Shown here piece by piece: positions 15,685-49,582 of a stretch of 64,000 nt of DNA; positions within the stretch are counted from its first letter, which is position 1; every line of letters starts with the position of its first letter. The notes below the pieces were generated by a model, which was not told the origin of the DNA, ran no database searches, and worked only from the letters and a program-made list of their open reading frames with translations. A program made the translations under genes and the position numbers. Source of the stretch: Thermoanaerobaculales bacterium (GTDB lineage Bacteria > Acidobacteriota > Thermoanaerobaculia > Thermoanaerobaculales > Sulfomarinibacteraceae); the NCBI GenBank assembly GCA_025456145.1, contig JALOLD010000004.1:124001-188000 (forward strand), written 5' to 3'.

Positions 15685-15688
<4 letters not shown>

Positions 15689-16488
15689 GCCGGCTCCGCG
15701 GGGCCTTCAGGTCCGCCGCGCGACAGGATCGCGCCGCGTTCGTCCCCTACATCACGGCGGGCGACCCGACCCTCGAGGCGACGCTCGGGCTCGCCCTCGC
15801 CCTCGAGCGCGCCGGGGCGGACGTCCTCGAGCTCGGCGTGCCCTTCTCCGACCCGATCGCCGACGGGCCGACCAACCAGCGCGCCGCCGAGCGGGCGTTG
15901 GCCGCCGGCGCTACCCTGGCGGGGGTGCTCGAGATCGCCGCCGAAATCCGGCGCCGGACCTCCCTGGCGCTGGTGCTGTTCACCTACGCCAACCCGGTCG
16001 TCCGCCTCGGGATCGAGAGCTTCGCCGAGCGTGCCGCCTCCGCGGGGGTCGACGGGGTGCTCTTCACCGATGTGCCGGCCGAGGAGATGCCGCGCTTCAG
16101 GCCGGCGCTCAGACGGGCGGGTCTCGACCCGGTGATGCTGGTGACCCCGACCTCGTCGGCCGAGCGGATGCGGGCTGCGGCCCGGATCGGCGGCGGCTTT
16201 CTCTACCTGGTGTCGCGCACCGGGGTCACCGGCGCGGCGCGGGAGCTCGACCGCGAGCTCGCGGCCAACGTCGAGACCGCCCGGCGGGCCTCGAAGCTCC
16301 CGGTCGCGGTGGGTTTCGGGATCTCGACGCCGGACCAGGTGGCGGCGGTGGCCGCCCTGGCCGATGGCGTCGTCGTCGGCTCGGCCATCGTCAACGTCAT
16401 CGCTGGAGAAGGCGACACCGACGAGCTGCCTGGCGTGGTGGAACGGTTCGCCGCACCGCTGGCTCAGGCGTGCCGTCGACGGCCGTGA
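15685..16488 (+). CDS. trpA: tryptophan synthase alpha subunit
   Basis: Cleaves indole-3-glycerol phosphate and channels indole to TrpB. The product is 267 aa. The catalytic Glu is in [15 protein letters not shown] with the Asp of the same segment; [10 protein letters not shown] and [11 protein letters not shown] are present. The GTG start is in the trpB stop. It ends the seven-gene operon; a 17-bp hairpin begins 20 bases later. Confidence 0.96.
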
Positions 16489-16507: not shown

Positions 16508-16547
16508 TTTCTCGACCTCGGAATCCGCGAATTCCGAGGTCGAGAAA
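16508..16547 (+). promoter_or_regulatory. perfect 17-bp inverted repeat covering the rsmA ribosome-binding site
   Basis: Left arm 16508-16524 and right arm 16531-16547 are exact reverse complements around a 6-base loop (CCGCGA). The right arm contains GAGGT (16536-16540), the only Shine-Dalgarno-like sequence before the rsmA ATG, and ends on the A of that ATG. Folded in mRNA it would hide the ribosome-binding site; it could also end trp transcription or be a protein-binding or REP-type palindrome. Confidence 0.7.
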
Positions 16548-17362
16548 TGAGCTTGGTTCCAACCGTGGGCCGTCCCAAACACCGCCGCCTGGGCCAGAAC
16601 TTCCTGACCGACGGCAACGTCGCACGACGGATCGTCGCCCTGCTCGGCGACGAGCCGCGGCGGGTCGTCGAGATCGGTCCCGGTCGCGGCGCTCTCACCG
16701 AGCCCCTGCTCGAGCGTTACCCGATCGTCCGGGCCCTCGAGCTCGACGAGCGCCTGATCGCCCCGCTCGAGGCGCGGCTCGGCGGTCGGGGTCTCGAGGT
16801 GGTCCACGCCGACGCCCTCACCGCCGACCTCGACGAGCTCCTCGGCGTCGACGGACGTTGGCAGCTCGCCGCCAACCTGCCCTACTCGGTGGGCTCGGCG
16901 ATCCTGCGCCGGCTGCTCCCGCGCCACGATCTGTTCGACCGGCTGGTCGTGATGCTCCAGCGCGAGGTCGCCCGCCGGGTGGTCGCCGAGCCGGGGGGCG
17001 GCGATCACGGGCTGCTCGCCCTCGAACGGGCCGCCTGGGCCGAGGCGAGGATCGCGTTCGAGGTCTCCCCGCGGGCCTTCCGCCCCGCGCCCAAGGTGGT
17101 TTCGGCAGTGCTCGTCCTCGCCCCGCGGCGACCGCCGGCGCCCAGGGACGAGCTCGGCCGGGCCCTCGCCCTCGCCGCGCGGGCGCTGACCCGACCGCGC
17201 AAGATGCTGCCCAACGCGCTCGGTGGGGGGGTGACCGGTGATCTCGTCGGGGCCGCGGGCATCGACCCGACGATCCGCCCCGGGGAGCTCTCCCTCGCGG
17301 ACTGGCTGCGCCTGAGCGCCGCCCTCGGGCGCGAGTCGCACCGACGGGGCGAATCGGGGTGA
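16547..17362 (+). CDS. rsmA: 16S rRNA (adenine1518-N6/adenine1519-N6)-dimethyltransferase
   Basis: Dimethylates two adjacent adenines in the 3' hairpin of 16S rRNA, a late step in 30S assembly (KsgA). The product is 271 aa. LGQNFLTDGNVARRIV, the SAM-binding VVEIGPGRGALTEPLL and the catalytic NLPYSV motif are all present. The ATG at 16547 is preferred because its only usable GAGGT lies 6 bases upstream, inside a perfect hairpin; TTG or GTG starts a few codons later are possible. A short strong hairpin follows (17371-17391). Confidence 0.95.
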   Translation: MSLVPTVGRPKHRRLGQNFLTDGNVARRIVALLGDEPRRVVEIGPGRGALTEPLLERYPIVRALELDERLIAPLEARLGGRGLEVVHADALTADLDELLGVDGRWQLAANLPYSVGSAILRRLLPRHDLFDRLVVMLQREVARRVVAEPGGGDHGLLALERAAWAEARIAFEVSPRAFRPAPKVVSAVLVLAPRRPPAPRDELGRALALAARALTRPRKMLPNALGGGVTGDLVGAAGIDPTIRPGELSLADWLRLSAALGRESHRRGESG

Positions 17363-24000: not shown

Positions 24001-24597
24001 TGCCGGCACCGTGTACGGGTCAAGGATGGAGCAACCGCCAGGTGATGGCGCGAACCTCGTCGAGGACGTCGAGGGCCCGCCGCGTAGCGGCGGTCTCAAG
24101 GACTCCGGCTGCGAGAAGCAGCCGAAGGTGGGCGTCAGCCTCCTTTGCGGAGCCGTCGGCGAGGCGTGCGGGTTCTCAGGAGCACCGGCCTTCCGGGCCG
24201 TCCGGCCTGGACGGCCGGGCGGCCCGGCGTCGCGCCGCCGGCACGGTCGCTCGAGGGGAACGAGGAGGGCTGCGACCGTGCCGGCGACGCGGGCGGCGGC
24301 CTGCATCGTTGCTTCGGCACCTGCTCAGGATCGCGCCTCCCGGGGGTGCCCGGCTGGACATTGTGCGTGAGGCGTGGCGGACGTGAGCGCGTTTCTGAGC
24401 ACAATGTCGAGCCCGGCACGCCCGGTGAGCAGCGGTGCTCAGGGGGCGTGCGGGTGGCGCTCCGGGGAGGTCGGCGCGTCCGACGCGCCGCCGCAATTCG
24501 TTCGACGAATTGCTGCCGCTGCCGCAGCCGCTGACATCGGACGCGGACTCGGACGCGGACGCGGACGCGGGCGCTGATGGGGTTGGGGAGGCTGCGG
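24001..24597. repeat. palindrome-rich gene-free island closed by an inverted GGACGC array
   Basis: About 600 bases without a credible intact gene. Nested inverted repeats are visible: 14-bp perfect arms at 24237-24250 and 24272-24285; long imperfect arms ~24337-24366 and 24399-24428; and 9-bp perfect arms GCAATTCGT/ACGAATTGC at 24492-24512. At 24525-24577 the sequence GCCGCTGACATCGGACGCGG and further GGACGC units mirror the array at 23820-24000, so the island has inverted ends. It contains a decayed four-helix-bundle gene (24020-24175). Confidence 0.7.
24020..24175 (-). pseudogene. remnant of a four-helix-bundle (S23/IVS-type) protein gene
   Basis: The minus-strand frame reads EPARLADGSAKEADAHLRLL ... 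LDVLDEVRAITWRLLHP and then a stop. This is the C-terminal half typical of four-helix-bundle proteins (GSxxExxxxLxxA, late VxxxxWxL). The frame is closed by an in-frame stop just upstream (24176-24178), and the N-terminal half cannot be found, the DNA there being palindromic repeat. Only 51 codons remain. The call rests on pattern resemblance. Confidence 0.5.
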
Positions 24598-26959: not shown

Positions 26960-26985
26960 GGGCGACGAGGATGACCGACTGGGCG

Positions 26986-27065
26986 ATCAGCTCTCAGCTT
27001 TCAGCTCTCAGCCGTTCCCGTGCGAGGGCGGCGGAGCTGACAGCCGACAGCTGATGGCTGACGGC
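26986..27065. repeat. AGCTGA-type interspersed stem-loop repeat, copy 2 (inside the operon)
   Basis: TCAGCTCTCAGCTTTCAGC followed by more of the same (26987-27014) faces GAGCTGACAGCCGACAGCTG and TGGCTGACGGC (27034-27065) in inverted orientation. It separates korD from korA and would form a stem-loop in the operon mRNA. Related to 4944-5030. Confidence 0.7.
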
Positions 27066-27085
27066 CGTTACGGATGGAGCTCGCG

Positions 27086-32634: not shown

Positions 32635-32663
32635 TGGCGGCCGCAACCATCCTGGACATCGCC

Positions 32664-32756
32664 CGTCGCAACCACAAAGGCACAAAGGCACAAAGAAAAA
32701 CACCAAGAAAGTCCTTTGTGATCTCCTTCGTGTCTTGGTGTCTTCGTGGTTGTGGT
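32664..32756. repeat. AACCACAAAGGCAC-type palindromic repeat, copy 1
   Basis: Left part CGTCGCAACCACAAAGGCAC and right part TGTCTTCGTGGTTGTGG are imperfect inverted copies over ~93 bases. AT-richer than its surroundings, it lies inside the operon between the HoxU-like and CooF-like genes. A close relative lies at 48101-48190 and a half copy at 33941-33978. Confidence 0.8.
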
Positions 32757-32788
32757 GATGTGCCAATTTTTGATTGCGAGTGTGAAAA

Positions 32789-33253
32789 ATGAGGATGATC
32801 TACAAGGTCTCGGTGGAGCGCTGCATCGCCTGCGGCAAGTGCGAGCTCGCCTGCGCCTTCGCCCACGGCAGCGAGGGAAGACCGTCGAAGACGCGGATCA
32901 ACATCCACCGCCGCGGCCCCGAGCTCGGGACGCCGGTGGTGTGCTTCCAGTGCGACGCCGCGGCCTGTGTCACGGTTTGTCCGACCCAGGCACTGGTCCG
33001 TAACGAGACGACCGGCGCCATCGACATGGTGCGTTCGCGCTGCATCAGCTGTCGGATGTGCGTCGCCGCGTGCCCGTTCGGCAACATGCTGTGGGACGAG
33101 ACCTACCACTGCGTCCAGAAGTGCGACCTGTGCGGGGGCGAGCCGCGCTGCGTGCCGTTCTGCCCGACCGGGGCCATCGCCTGGGTGCCCGCCGCCGAGG
33201 CGGCGGTCCGGCCGGAACCGCTGGATCGGGAAGCGTTGGAGGTGGCGCGTTGA
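32789..33253 (+). CDS. CooF/HycB-like polyferredoxin (four [4Fe-4S] motifs)
   Basis: 154 aa. Four cysteine groups: CIACGKCELAC (~13), CFQCDAAACVTVCP (~53), CISCRMCVAACP (~84) and CDLCGGEPRCVPFCP (~112). This is the electron-wiring subunit seen with CO dehydrogenase (CooF), formate-hydrogen lyase (HycB) or DMSO-reductase-type enzymes, but no such catalytic subunit is near. It could link the Kor/Nuo-like complex to another donor or to the rubrerythrin. ATG 32789 or the second ATG 32795; the ribosome-binding site is weak. Confidence 0.85.
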   Translation: MRMIYKVSVERCIACGKCELACAFAHGSEGRPSKTRINIHRRGPELGTPVVCFQCDAAACVTVCPTQALVRNETTGAIDMVRSRCISCRMCVAACPFGNMLWDETYHCVQKCDLCGGEPRCVPFCPTGAIAWVPAAEAAVRPEPLDREALEVAR

Positions 33254-48100: not shown

Positions 48101-48190
48101 CGTCGCAACCACAAAGACACGAAGACACGAAGAAGGGCACAAGGGACCGTTCTTTGTGATCCTCTAGGTGCCTTGGTGTCTTCGTGGTTG
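48101..48190. repeat. AACCACAAAGACAC-type palindromic repeat, copy 2
   Basis: CGTCGCAACCACAAAGACAC and later GAAGACACGAAG units face CTTGGTGTCTTCGTGGTTG in inverted orientation. It lies between two permease genes of one operon. Same family as 32664-32756. Confidence 0.8.
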
Positions 48191-49486: not shown

Positions 49487-49582
49487 GGTGCCAGGAGAAA
49501 CAAAGTTAACAAAGTGTTCTCAGGGCCGGTGCATACCGGATGCCGTCACCTCCACTTTGTTAACTTTGTTTCTCCTGGCACC
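49487..49582. repeat. 96-bp element with perfect 30-bp AT-rich inverted arms
   Basis: Arms 49487-49516 and 49553-49582 are exact reverse complements (they begin GGTGCCAGGAGAAACAAAG). The 36-base centre contains a smaller hairpin, CCGGT-GCAT-ACCGG. The low GC of the arms contrasts with the flanks and suggests an acquired mobile palindrome. It lies 2 bases after the permease 2 stop and before the ATPase gene of the same operon. Confidence 0.85.

Follow-up and report, generated by a model that had tools for sequence, protein, structure and literature searches.

A perfect 17-bp hairpin between trpA and rsmA in a Thermoanaerobaculales genome, upstream of the likelier rsmA start codon

The trpA–rsmA spacer of the window, the 64-kb stretch of DNA that was analysed, contained a perfect hairpin that is a real structure, beyond chance. 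In the reading preferred here, which has about an even chance of being correct, the hairpin does not gate rsmA: it is an element between the two cistrons of a trp–rsmA transcript, lies upstream of the true rsmA start and belongs to a sparse group of long tail-less palindromes. The anatomy of the hairpin, its conservation at the genus level and the class of long palindromes were all directly observed. The window belongs to genome G000, a 4.56-Mb draft in 142 contigs. The features of the junction were as follows.

15685–16488, + strand: trpA, the final trp-cluster gene, which we take to encode tryptophan synthase alpha; it ends with TGA at 16486–16488; tblastn matches in 14 relatives with 56–75% identity
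16489–16564, + strand: trpA–rsmA spacer of 76 nt; fold z -6.45, reached by 0 of 200 shuffles
16508–16524, + strand: 5' arm of the hairpin, TTTCTCGACCTCGGAAT, from the letters, the local fold and a window-wide stem search
16525–16530, + strand: hairpin loop CCGCGA, from the letters and the local fold
16531–16547, + strand: 3' arm of the hairpin, ATTCCGAGGTCGAGAAA, containing GAGGT at 16536–16540
16547–16549, + strand: in-frame ATG proposed earlier as the rsmA start, unconserved as a start and followed by the rare codons TTG, GTT and CCA
16565–17362, + strand: rsmA, a KsgA-type 16S rRNA dimethyladenosine transferase; conserved start GTG at 16565, also picked by a codon-usage caller

The two arms were paired at 17 of 17 positions by Watson–Crick pairs around the 6-nt loop, and GAGGT was located within the 3' arm, both as described by the first-pass annotation. 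That annotation had also placed the end of the stem on the A of the rsmA ATG; A16547 did open an in-frame ATG, but the conserved rsmA start was GTG 16565. The hairpin alone was predicted to have a free energy of -28.0 kcal/mol at 37 °C, and the local fold of 131 nt reached -56.8 kcal/mol (z -4.42), with none of 200 shuffles equally good. Among perfect stems with loops of 3–12 nt, the rsmA stem was the longest in the window, followed by one of 10 bp, and when the window was shuffled 40 times under a second-order Markov model, the longest such stem was 9–14 bp. Within the first set of stretches sampled from the own genome, a fold z below -5 was found in 4 of 43 co-directional spacers of 50–160 nt, the trpA–rsmA spacer included, and in none of 10 divergent and 6 convergent spacers. 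No second copy of the hairpin was found on either strand of the own genome, and the pattern TTTCTCG..CGAGAAA occurred at two sites only, the rsmA hairpin and a site upstream of dnaB.

The candidate starts of the rsmA frame included ATG 16502, ATG 16547 and GTG 16565. In an ungapped comparison, anchored on the LGQNFL motif, of the 18 of 20 family genomes with rsmA, all 18 had ATG, GTG or TTG where the window has GTG 16565, whereas the position of ATG 16547 held a start-type codon in four (ATG in G000, TTG in G002, GTG in G014 and G005), the one in G005 having an in-frame stop behind it. GTG 16565 was located 18 nt past ATG 16547 and was separated from the stem base by 17 nt; in the five other genomes with long spacers, the start codon was likewise read by eye beyond a hairpin or inverted repeat. 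The codons between 16547 and 16565 were rare in the own genome (TTG 0.27%, GTT 0.31%, CCA 0.29%), and 16565 was the start chosen by the home-made codon-usage gene caller. Judged from these comparisons, GTG 16565 is the likelier rsmA start. Since the conserved start codon was at 16565 and the codon at 16547 was unconserved, the earlier claim that the hairpin buries the rsmA ribosome-binding site was unsupported, and the rsmA start is probably not hidden by the hairpin. A true start further downstream, with a ribosome-binding site of its own, had been named earlier as something that would refute the gate; GTG 16565 supplied the conserved start, but no SD match accompanied it.

In the family, trpA was located directly upstream of rsmA in 15 of the 18 genomes; one further locus was cut by a contig end and two were without trpA. 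Nine genomes of other genera had spacers of -1 to 49 nt (G003, 23; G009, 1; G007, 49; G010, 38; G013, -1; G016, 1; G008, -1; G014, 37; G005, 41); the four spacers of at least 37 nt were folded and showed no hairpin, with z values of -0.06 to +2.07. The six genomes of genera g1 and g5 had spacers of 72–118 nt: 76 nt in G000, 72 nt in G001 (z -6.23), 76 nt in G002 (z -1.16), 118 nt in G019 (z -1.95), 105 nt in G006 (z -6.24) and 73 nt in G012 (z -7.42). Long spacers with hairpins were thus confined to these two genera and the hairpins were strong in four of the six genomes. The hairpin thus arrived together with a longer spacer in part of the family. At the order level, 12 loci were examined and no trpA was found within the stretch covered. 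The nearest named record, locus L033 of an uncultured Acidobacteria MAG, had an rsmA 69% identical to that of the window and a spacer identical to that of G001.

In order to compare the hairpin among relatives, a plain MAFFT alignment of four species was scored on the stem of G000 (17 pairs, 68 cells). In total, 80.9% of the cells were paired and 10 of the 17 pairs showed a double change, neither of which was reached by any of 500 shuffles; when the stem was slid along the alignment, at most 55.9% of the cells were paired, with 6 double-changed pairs. Fifteen other palindromes, centred on the stem in two registers as controls, gave 4–17 paired positions of 17 and up to 13 double changes. Because unrelated palindromes scored this high and the structure was taken from G000, the pair counts are no proof of homology. 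By letter identity to the G000 hairpin, G002 matched at 35 of 64 positions, G001 at 28 and G012 at 24–25, against 13–29 for the controls, among which the RND palindrome (29 of 64) exceeded G001; identical pairs numbered 8, 8 and 4 of 17, respectively, against 0–6 in the controls. Letter identity therefore indicates homology for G002 and, moderately, for G001, while G012 was within the range of the controls and homology is unproven beyond the genus. On these alignments the rsmA hairpin is homologous within the genus of the window, in two sister species.

The compensating changes in relatives for which the first-pass annotation had proposed to look were seen in these two sister species, but not beyond the genus. 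In G001, 16 of the 17 pairs were kept, with 7 double changes, whereas in G002 the hairpin was decayed, with 13 of 17 pairs, and the spacer preferred another fold. Among the 68 cells, G-U and A-C combinations were almost equally frequent (7 and 6), which is no RNA strand preference. In the second genus, the spacer sequence was either unrelated or a dispersed heptamer-repeat element. The spacers of G006 and G019 each held a member of such a dispersed inverted repeat, with at least 74 and at least 47 match rows, respectively, counting self-matches and both strands (lower bounds, with 40 candidates scored in each genome), and no second copy was found of the 23-bp perfect stem in G012. For g5, identity with the rsmA hairpin of the window is not demonstrable, and a hairpin at the shared position may have been created anew.

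Perfect hairpins outside called genes were collected from 1.69 Mb of six genomes. This census was not a random sample; the G006 part included 20 stretches chosen around a heptamer element, some of them overlapping, and a few loci were chosen for rsmA, msrA, dnaB and the reductase described below. Genes were called by the home-made codon-usage caller, with some starts wrong, and the msrA and aldo/keto reductase starts were set by eye. A loose helix scan of the leaders was uninformative in this GC-rich genome. Two populations were found. Hairpins of 11–14 bp (n = 44) had a 4-nt loop in 20 cases and a T-rich tail, defined as at least four T in the next eight bases, in 13 of 24 co-directional cases; with these loops and tails, the set is classed as terminators. 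Palindromes of at least 16 bp (n = 16; 16–25 bp), which include the rsmA hairpin and that of the G012 rsmA locus, more often had 3-nt loops (9 of 16 versus 9 of 44, p 0.012), had a T-rich tail in none of nine co-directional cases (p 0.005) and were AT-rich in the outer arms (0.61 versus 0.27). No stem longer than 13 bp arose when each census sample was shuffled three times. Stems of at least 12 bp within called genes were limited to one in G000 (13 bp), two in G002 (13 and 23 bp) and one in G001 (12 bp), with none in the other three genomes. The long palindromes were co-directional in nine cases, convergent in four, divergent in two and at a contig edge in one, approximately in proportion to the share of bases by our own arithmetic, and this spread across all spacer types means that no single role fits. 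No long palindrome was found in 76 kb of G009, the sole genome sampled from the genera without the rsmA hairpin. By stem length and missing tail the rsmA hairpin looks like a member of the long set; its own loop has 6 nt, not 3.

Three further long palindromes of G000 were located upstream of genes that we take to be dnaB, msrA and an aldo/keto reductase gene, and each followed the U-tailed terminator of the preceding gene or, at the reductase, a terminator-like hairpin. The msrA leader palindrome had 22 bp in G000 and 23 bp in G002, was near-perfect in G001, and extended from about -80 to -32; 7 of its 23 pairs were double-changed, with two one-sided G-U changes and one broken cell. It stayed about 32 nt before msrA, while the conserved upstream gene ended at -137 in G000, -523 in G001 and -915 in G002, where a further open frame lay between that gene and msrA. 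Because the distance to the upstream gene varied and the position of the palindrome was fixed, the palindrome goes with msrA. It was not found in G006, G012 or G009. Upstream of dnaB, a similar stem was common to G006 and G012, in which, counted by eye, about three of 15 pairs were double-changed and one was broken; the G000 stem was unlike it, and G001 and G002 had none. At L203 4253–4303, a 24-bp perfect palindrome containing GGGGAG ended 1 base before the aldo/keto reductase ATG, and was absent from the start of the gene in the five relatives (one of six genomes); it is a better candidate than the rsmA hairpin for burying a start. Other long palindromes, in which the 5' arm was rich in pyrimidines, were observed at L263 17315–17363 and L266 17571–17617 (G002) and at L232 3358–3403 (G012), 20–27 nt before called starts of what are presumably genes for an RND transporter, a SufC-like ATPase and an aroB-like product.

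Dispersed inverted repeats formed a separate group of observations. In G006 (L174–L193), an inverted repeat of the heptamer GAGTTTT with a C-rich/G-rich core overlapped a gene end or was no more than 25 nt away from one in 17 of 20 places; its contexts were convergent in nine, co-directional in nine, divergent in one and a contig edge in one (convergent excess, p 0.006), and it looks like a 3'-end element. In the window, positions 49487–49582 carried a 30-bp perfect inverted repeat with a 36-nt middle between two ABC transporter genes, presumably permease and ATPase; related pieces in the own genome (18 match rows with self and both strands, e.g. L203 6095–6162) identify it as a dispersed palindromic element. 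Long inverted repeats of CACAAAG/CACGAAG heptamers occurred between co-directional genes at 32635–32794 and 48118–48186; for the former, scoring 40 candidates in the own genome gave at least 65 match rows, self-matches and both strands counted. An AGCTCTC-like heptamer inverted repeat at 26966–27072 was located ahead of a co-directional gene. The inverted repeat CGCCGGCACGGTCGC was repeated with differing middles at 24236–24286, L129 684–734 and L116 5784–5834, three copies in the first sample.

A translational gate would require that rsmA starts at ATG 16547 and that the stem masks the GAGGT SD until a ribosome, a protein or heat opens it. The 5-nt SD match at ATG 16547 and the lack of one at GTG 16565 favour such a gate, as SD matches of at least 4 nt preceded 264 of 441 sampled genes versus 118 of 441 random stretches. 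GTG 16565 was itself predicted to be mostly paired (0.04 unpaired), and the reductase palindrome, its start and gene name read by eye, shows a comparable arrangement in the same genome. However, this palindrome is missing at the reductase start of the other genomes examined, and a gate that sequesters an SD has the used start and the SD in or at a conserved stem, while the conserved start is downstream of the stem and rare codons fill the interval. RNA thermometers, whose SD is held in a stem with imperfect pairing and marginal stability that melts over the range of growth temperatures, resemble the rsmA hairpin, as do other SD-sequestering leaders, in having an SD-like sequence within a stem; the rsmA stem differs in being perfect and in leaving the conserved start outside. 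Bases 16535–16539 were predicted to be 0.00 unpaired from 20 to 80 °C, and with a stem of this stability a thermometer, and the temperature-dependent gate suggested earlier, were rejected. No Rfam family matched the window at gathering score, and up to an E value of 5 the only match (9.5 bits) was on the other strand and outside the hairpin; a known riboswitch, leader or sRNA family was thus rejected, in agreement with the first-pass view that known riboswitch and thermometer classes do not fit. A mimic of the rRNA helix methylated by RsmA, related to the idea of ksgA autoregulation, was also rejected, since the four hairpin apices read by eye, CCGCGA, UUCG, CUCG and GGA, are not the GGAA loop that we take that helix to carry. 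A gate is the least probable of the readings weighed here.

That the hairpin closes the trp operon as a transcription terminator or attenuator is only slightly more credible, and we consider it improbable. The hairpin began 19 nt past the trpA stop, and the same spacer in G006 carried the dispersed inverted repeat found at gene 3' ends. However, a U-tract was absent on both strands, the stem being followed by TGAGCTTG with T at 3 of 8 positions; therefore an intrinsic terminator with a GC-rich stem and U-tract was rejected, and the trp-operon terminator, also as one half of the terminator and translation gate proposed earlier, is unsupported, as is the gate. A simple terminator scan gave no site at the hairpin, the own genome has ordinary U-tailed terminators, the three similar long palindromes follow a terminator or terminator-like hairpin on the side of the next gene, and among the 15 genomes with an adjacent trpA, the two genes overlapped or touched in 4. 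It is unlikely, though less so than a terminator, that the palindromes play no part in expression and are by-products of template switching, which would both create them and keep their arms perfect. The stems are perfect and mutually unrelated, frequently with 3-nt loops, and double Watson–Crick changes occur with no preference for strand or context. Template switching is described for RNA genes in PMC8794818. The double changes in the msrA and rsmA arms come from distant species, and unrelated palindromes reach equal pair counts. Against a by-product, three species retain the msrA leader hairpin although the spacer upstream of it has been rebuilt. Template switching would be recognised by reverse-complement copying from one arm to the other in a close pair of sequences, and no such direct footprints were seen among these species, which are too distant for this comparison. 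Overall, the real hairpin, the compensating changes in sister species, the lack of an Rfam class and the SD-like GAGGT in the stem stood, whereas the buried ribosome-binding site, the thermometer and the terminator did not.

In the preferred reading of an intercistronic element, the spacer between the trpA stop and GTG 16565 would be transcribed within a trp–rsmA RNA, and the hairpin would separate the cistrons, uncoupling rsmA from trpA translation and/or providing a site for processing or end protection. RNase III cleaves within duplexes of about 20 bp or longer. In some other genera of the family, trpA and rsmA overlap or nearly touch. Template switching at replication may be what keeps the arms complementary, whether or not the RNA is also under selection; the lack of strand and context preference favours a mutational part and argues against a purely RNA-selected element.

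REP/BIME elements are intercistronic or extragenic palindromes that can stabilise or separate cistrons and are high-copy and alike in sequence. They share the placement of the rsmA hairpin, which unlike them is single-copy; a dispersed repeat of this type was rejected for it, as the search of the own genome returned only the hairpin itself, although the elements found at this junction in G006 and G019 are dispersed repeats of that kind. In PMC8794818 (Monttinen and Loytynoja 2022), the patterns described are compatible with hairpins being created and maintained by template switching, and its part in maintaining short stems is called less clear. Those hairpins resemble the long palindromes in their perfect long stems that could come from single events, co-changing arms and multi-base compensatory changes; they belong to RNA genes, whereas the present ones are intergenic palindromes of an uncultured bacterium, in which no such event was seen. 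According to PMC13155455, perfect inverted repeats surveyed in 118,019 genomes are enriched in bacteria downstream of gene ends. As here, their arms are perfect, of at least 10 bp, with short spacers; the 4-nt spacer given there as commonest in bacteria is that of the 11–14-bp hairpins, whereas the long class has mostly 3 nt and no T-rich tails. Intergenic heptamer direct repeats in Beggiatoaceae, as described in PMC4679880, are a distant parallel to the heptamer elements. A literature search of limited scope returned no description of the rsmA hairpin or of the long-palindrome class.

We tentatively propose, as an idea that is itself unlikely, an intergenic class defined by shape: palindromes of 45–53 nt with a perfect or near-perfect stem of 20–25 bp and usually a 3-nt loop, fixed before msrA and partly before rsmA and dnaB, whose letters turn over by concerted change of the arms, and which may act as sequence-independent cistron separators or duplex-processing sites in this Acidobacteriota lineage. 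For rsmA, the result is mainly corrective, as the start is more likely at 16565 and the thermometer reading is to be dropped. If the class is real, it would comprise natural hairpins that keep their shape while their letters change, and these could separate selection on RNA structure from the self-repair of palindromes by mutation.
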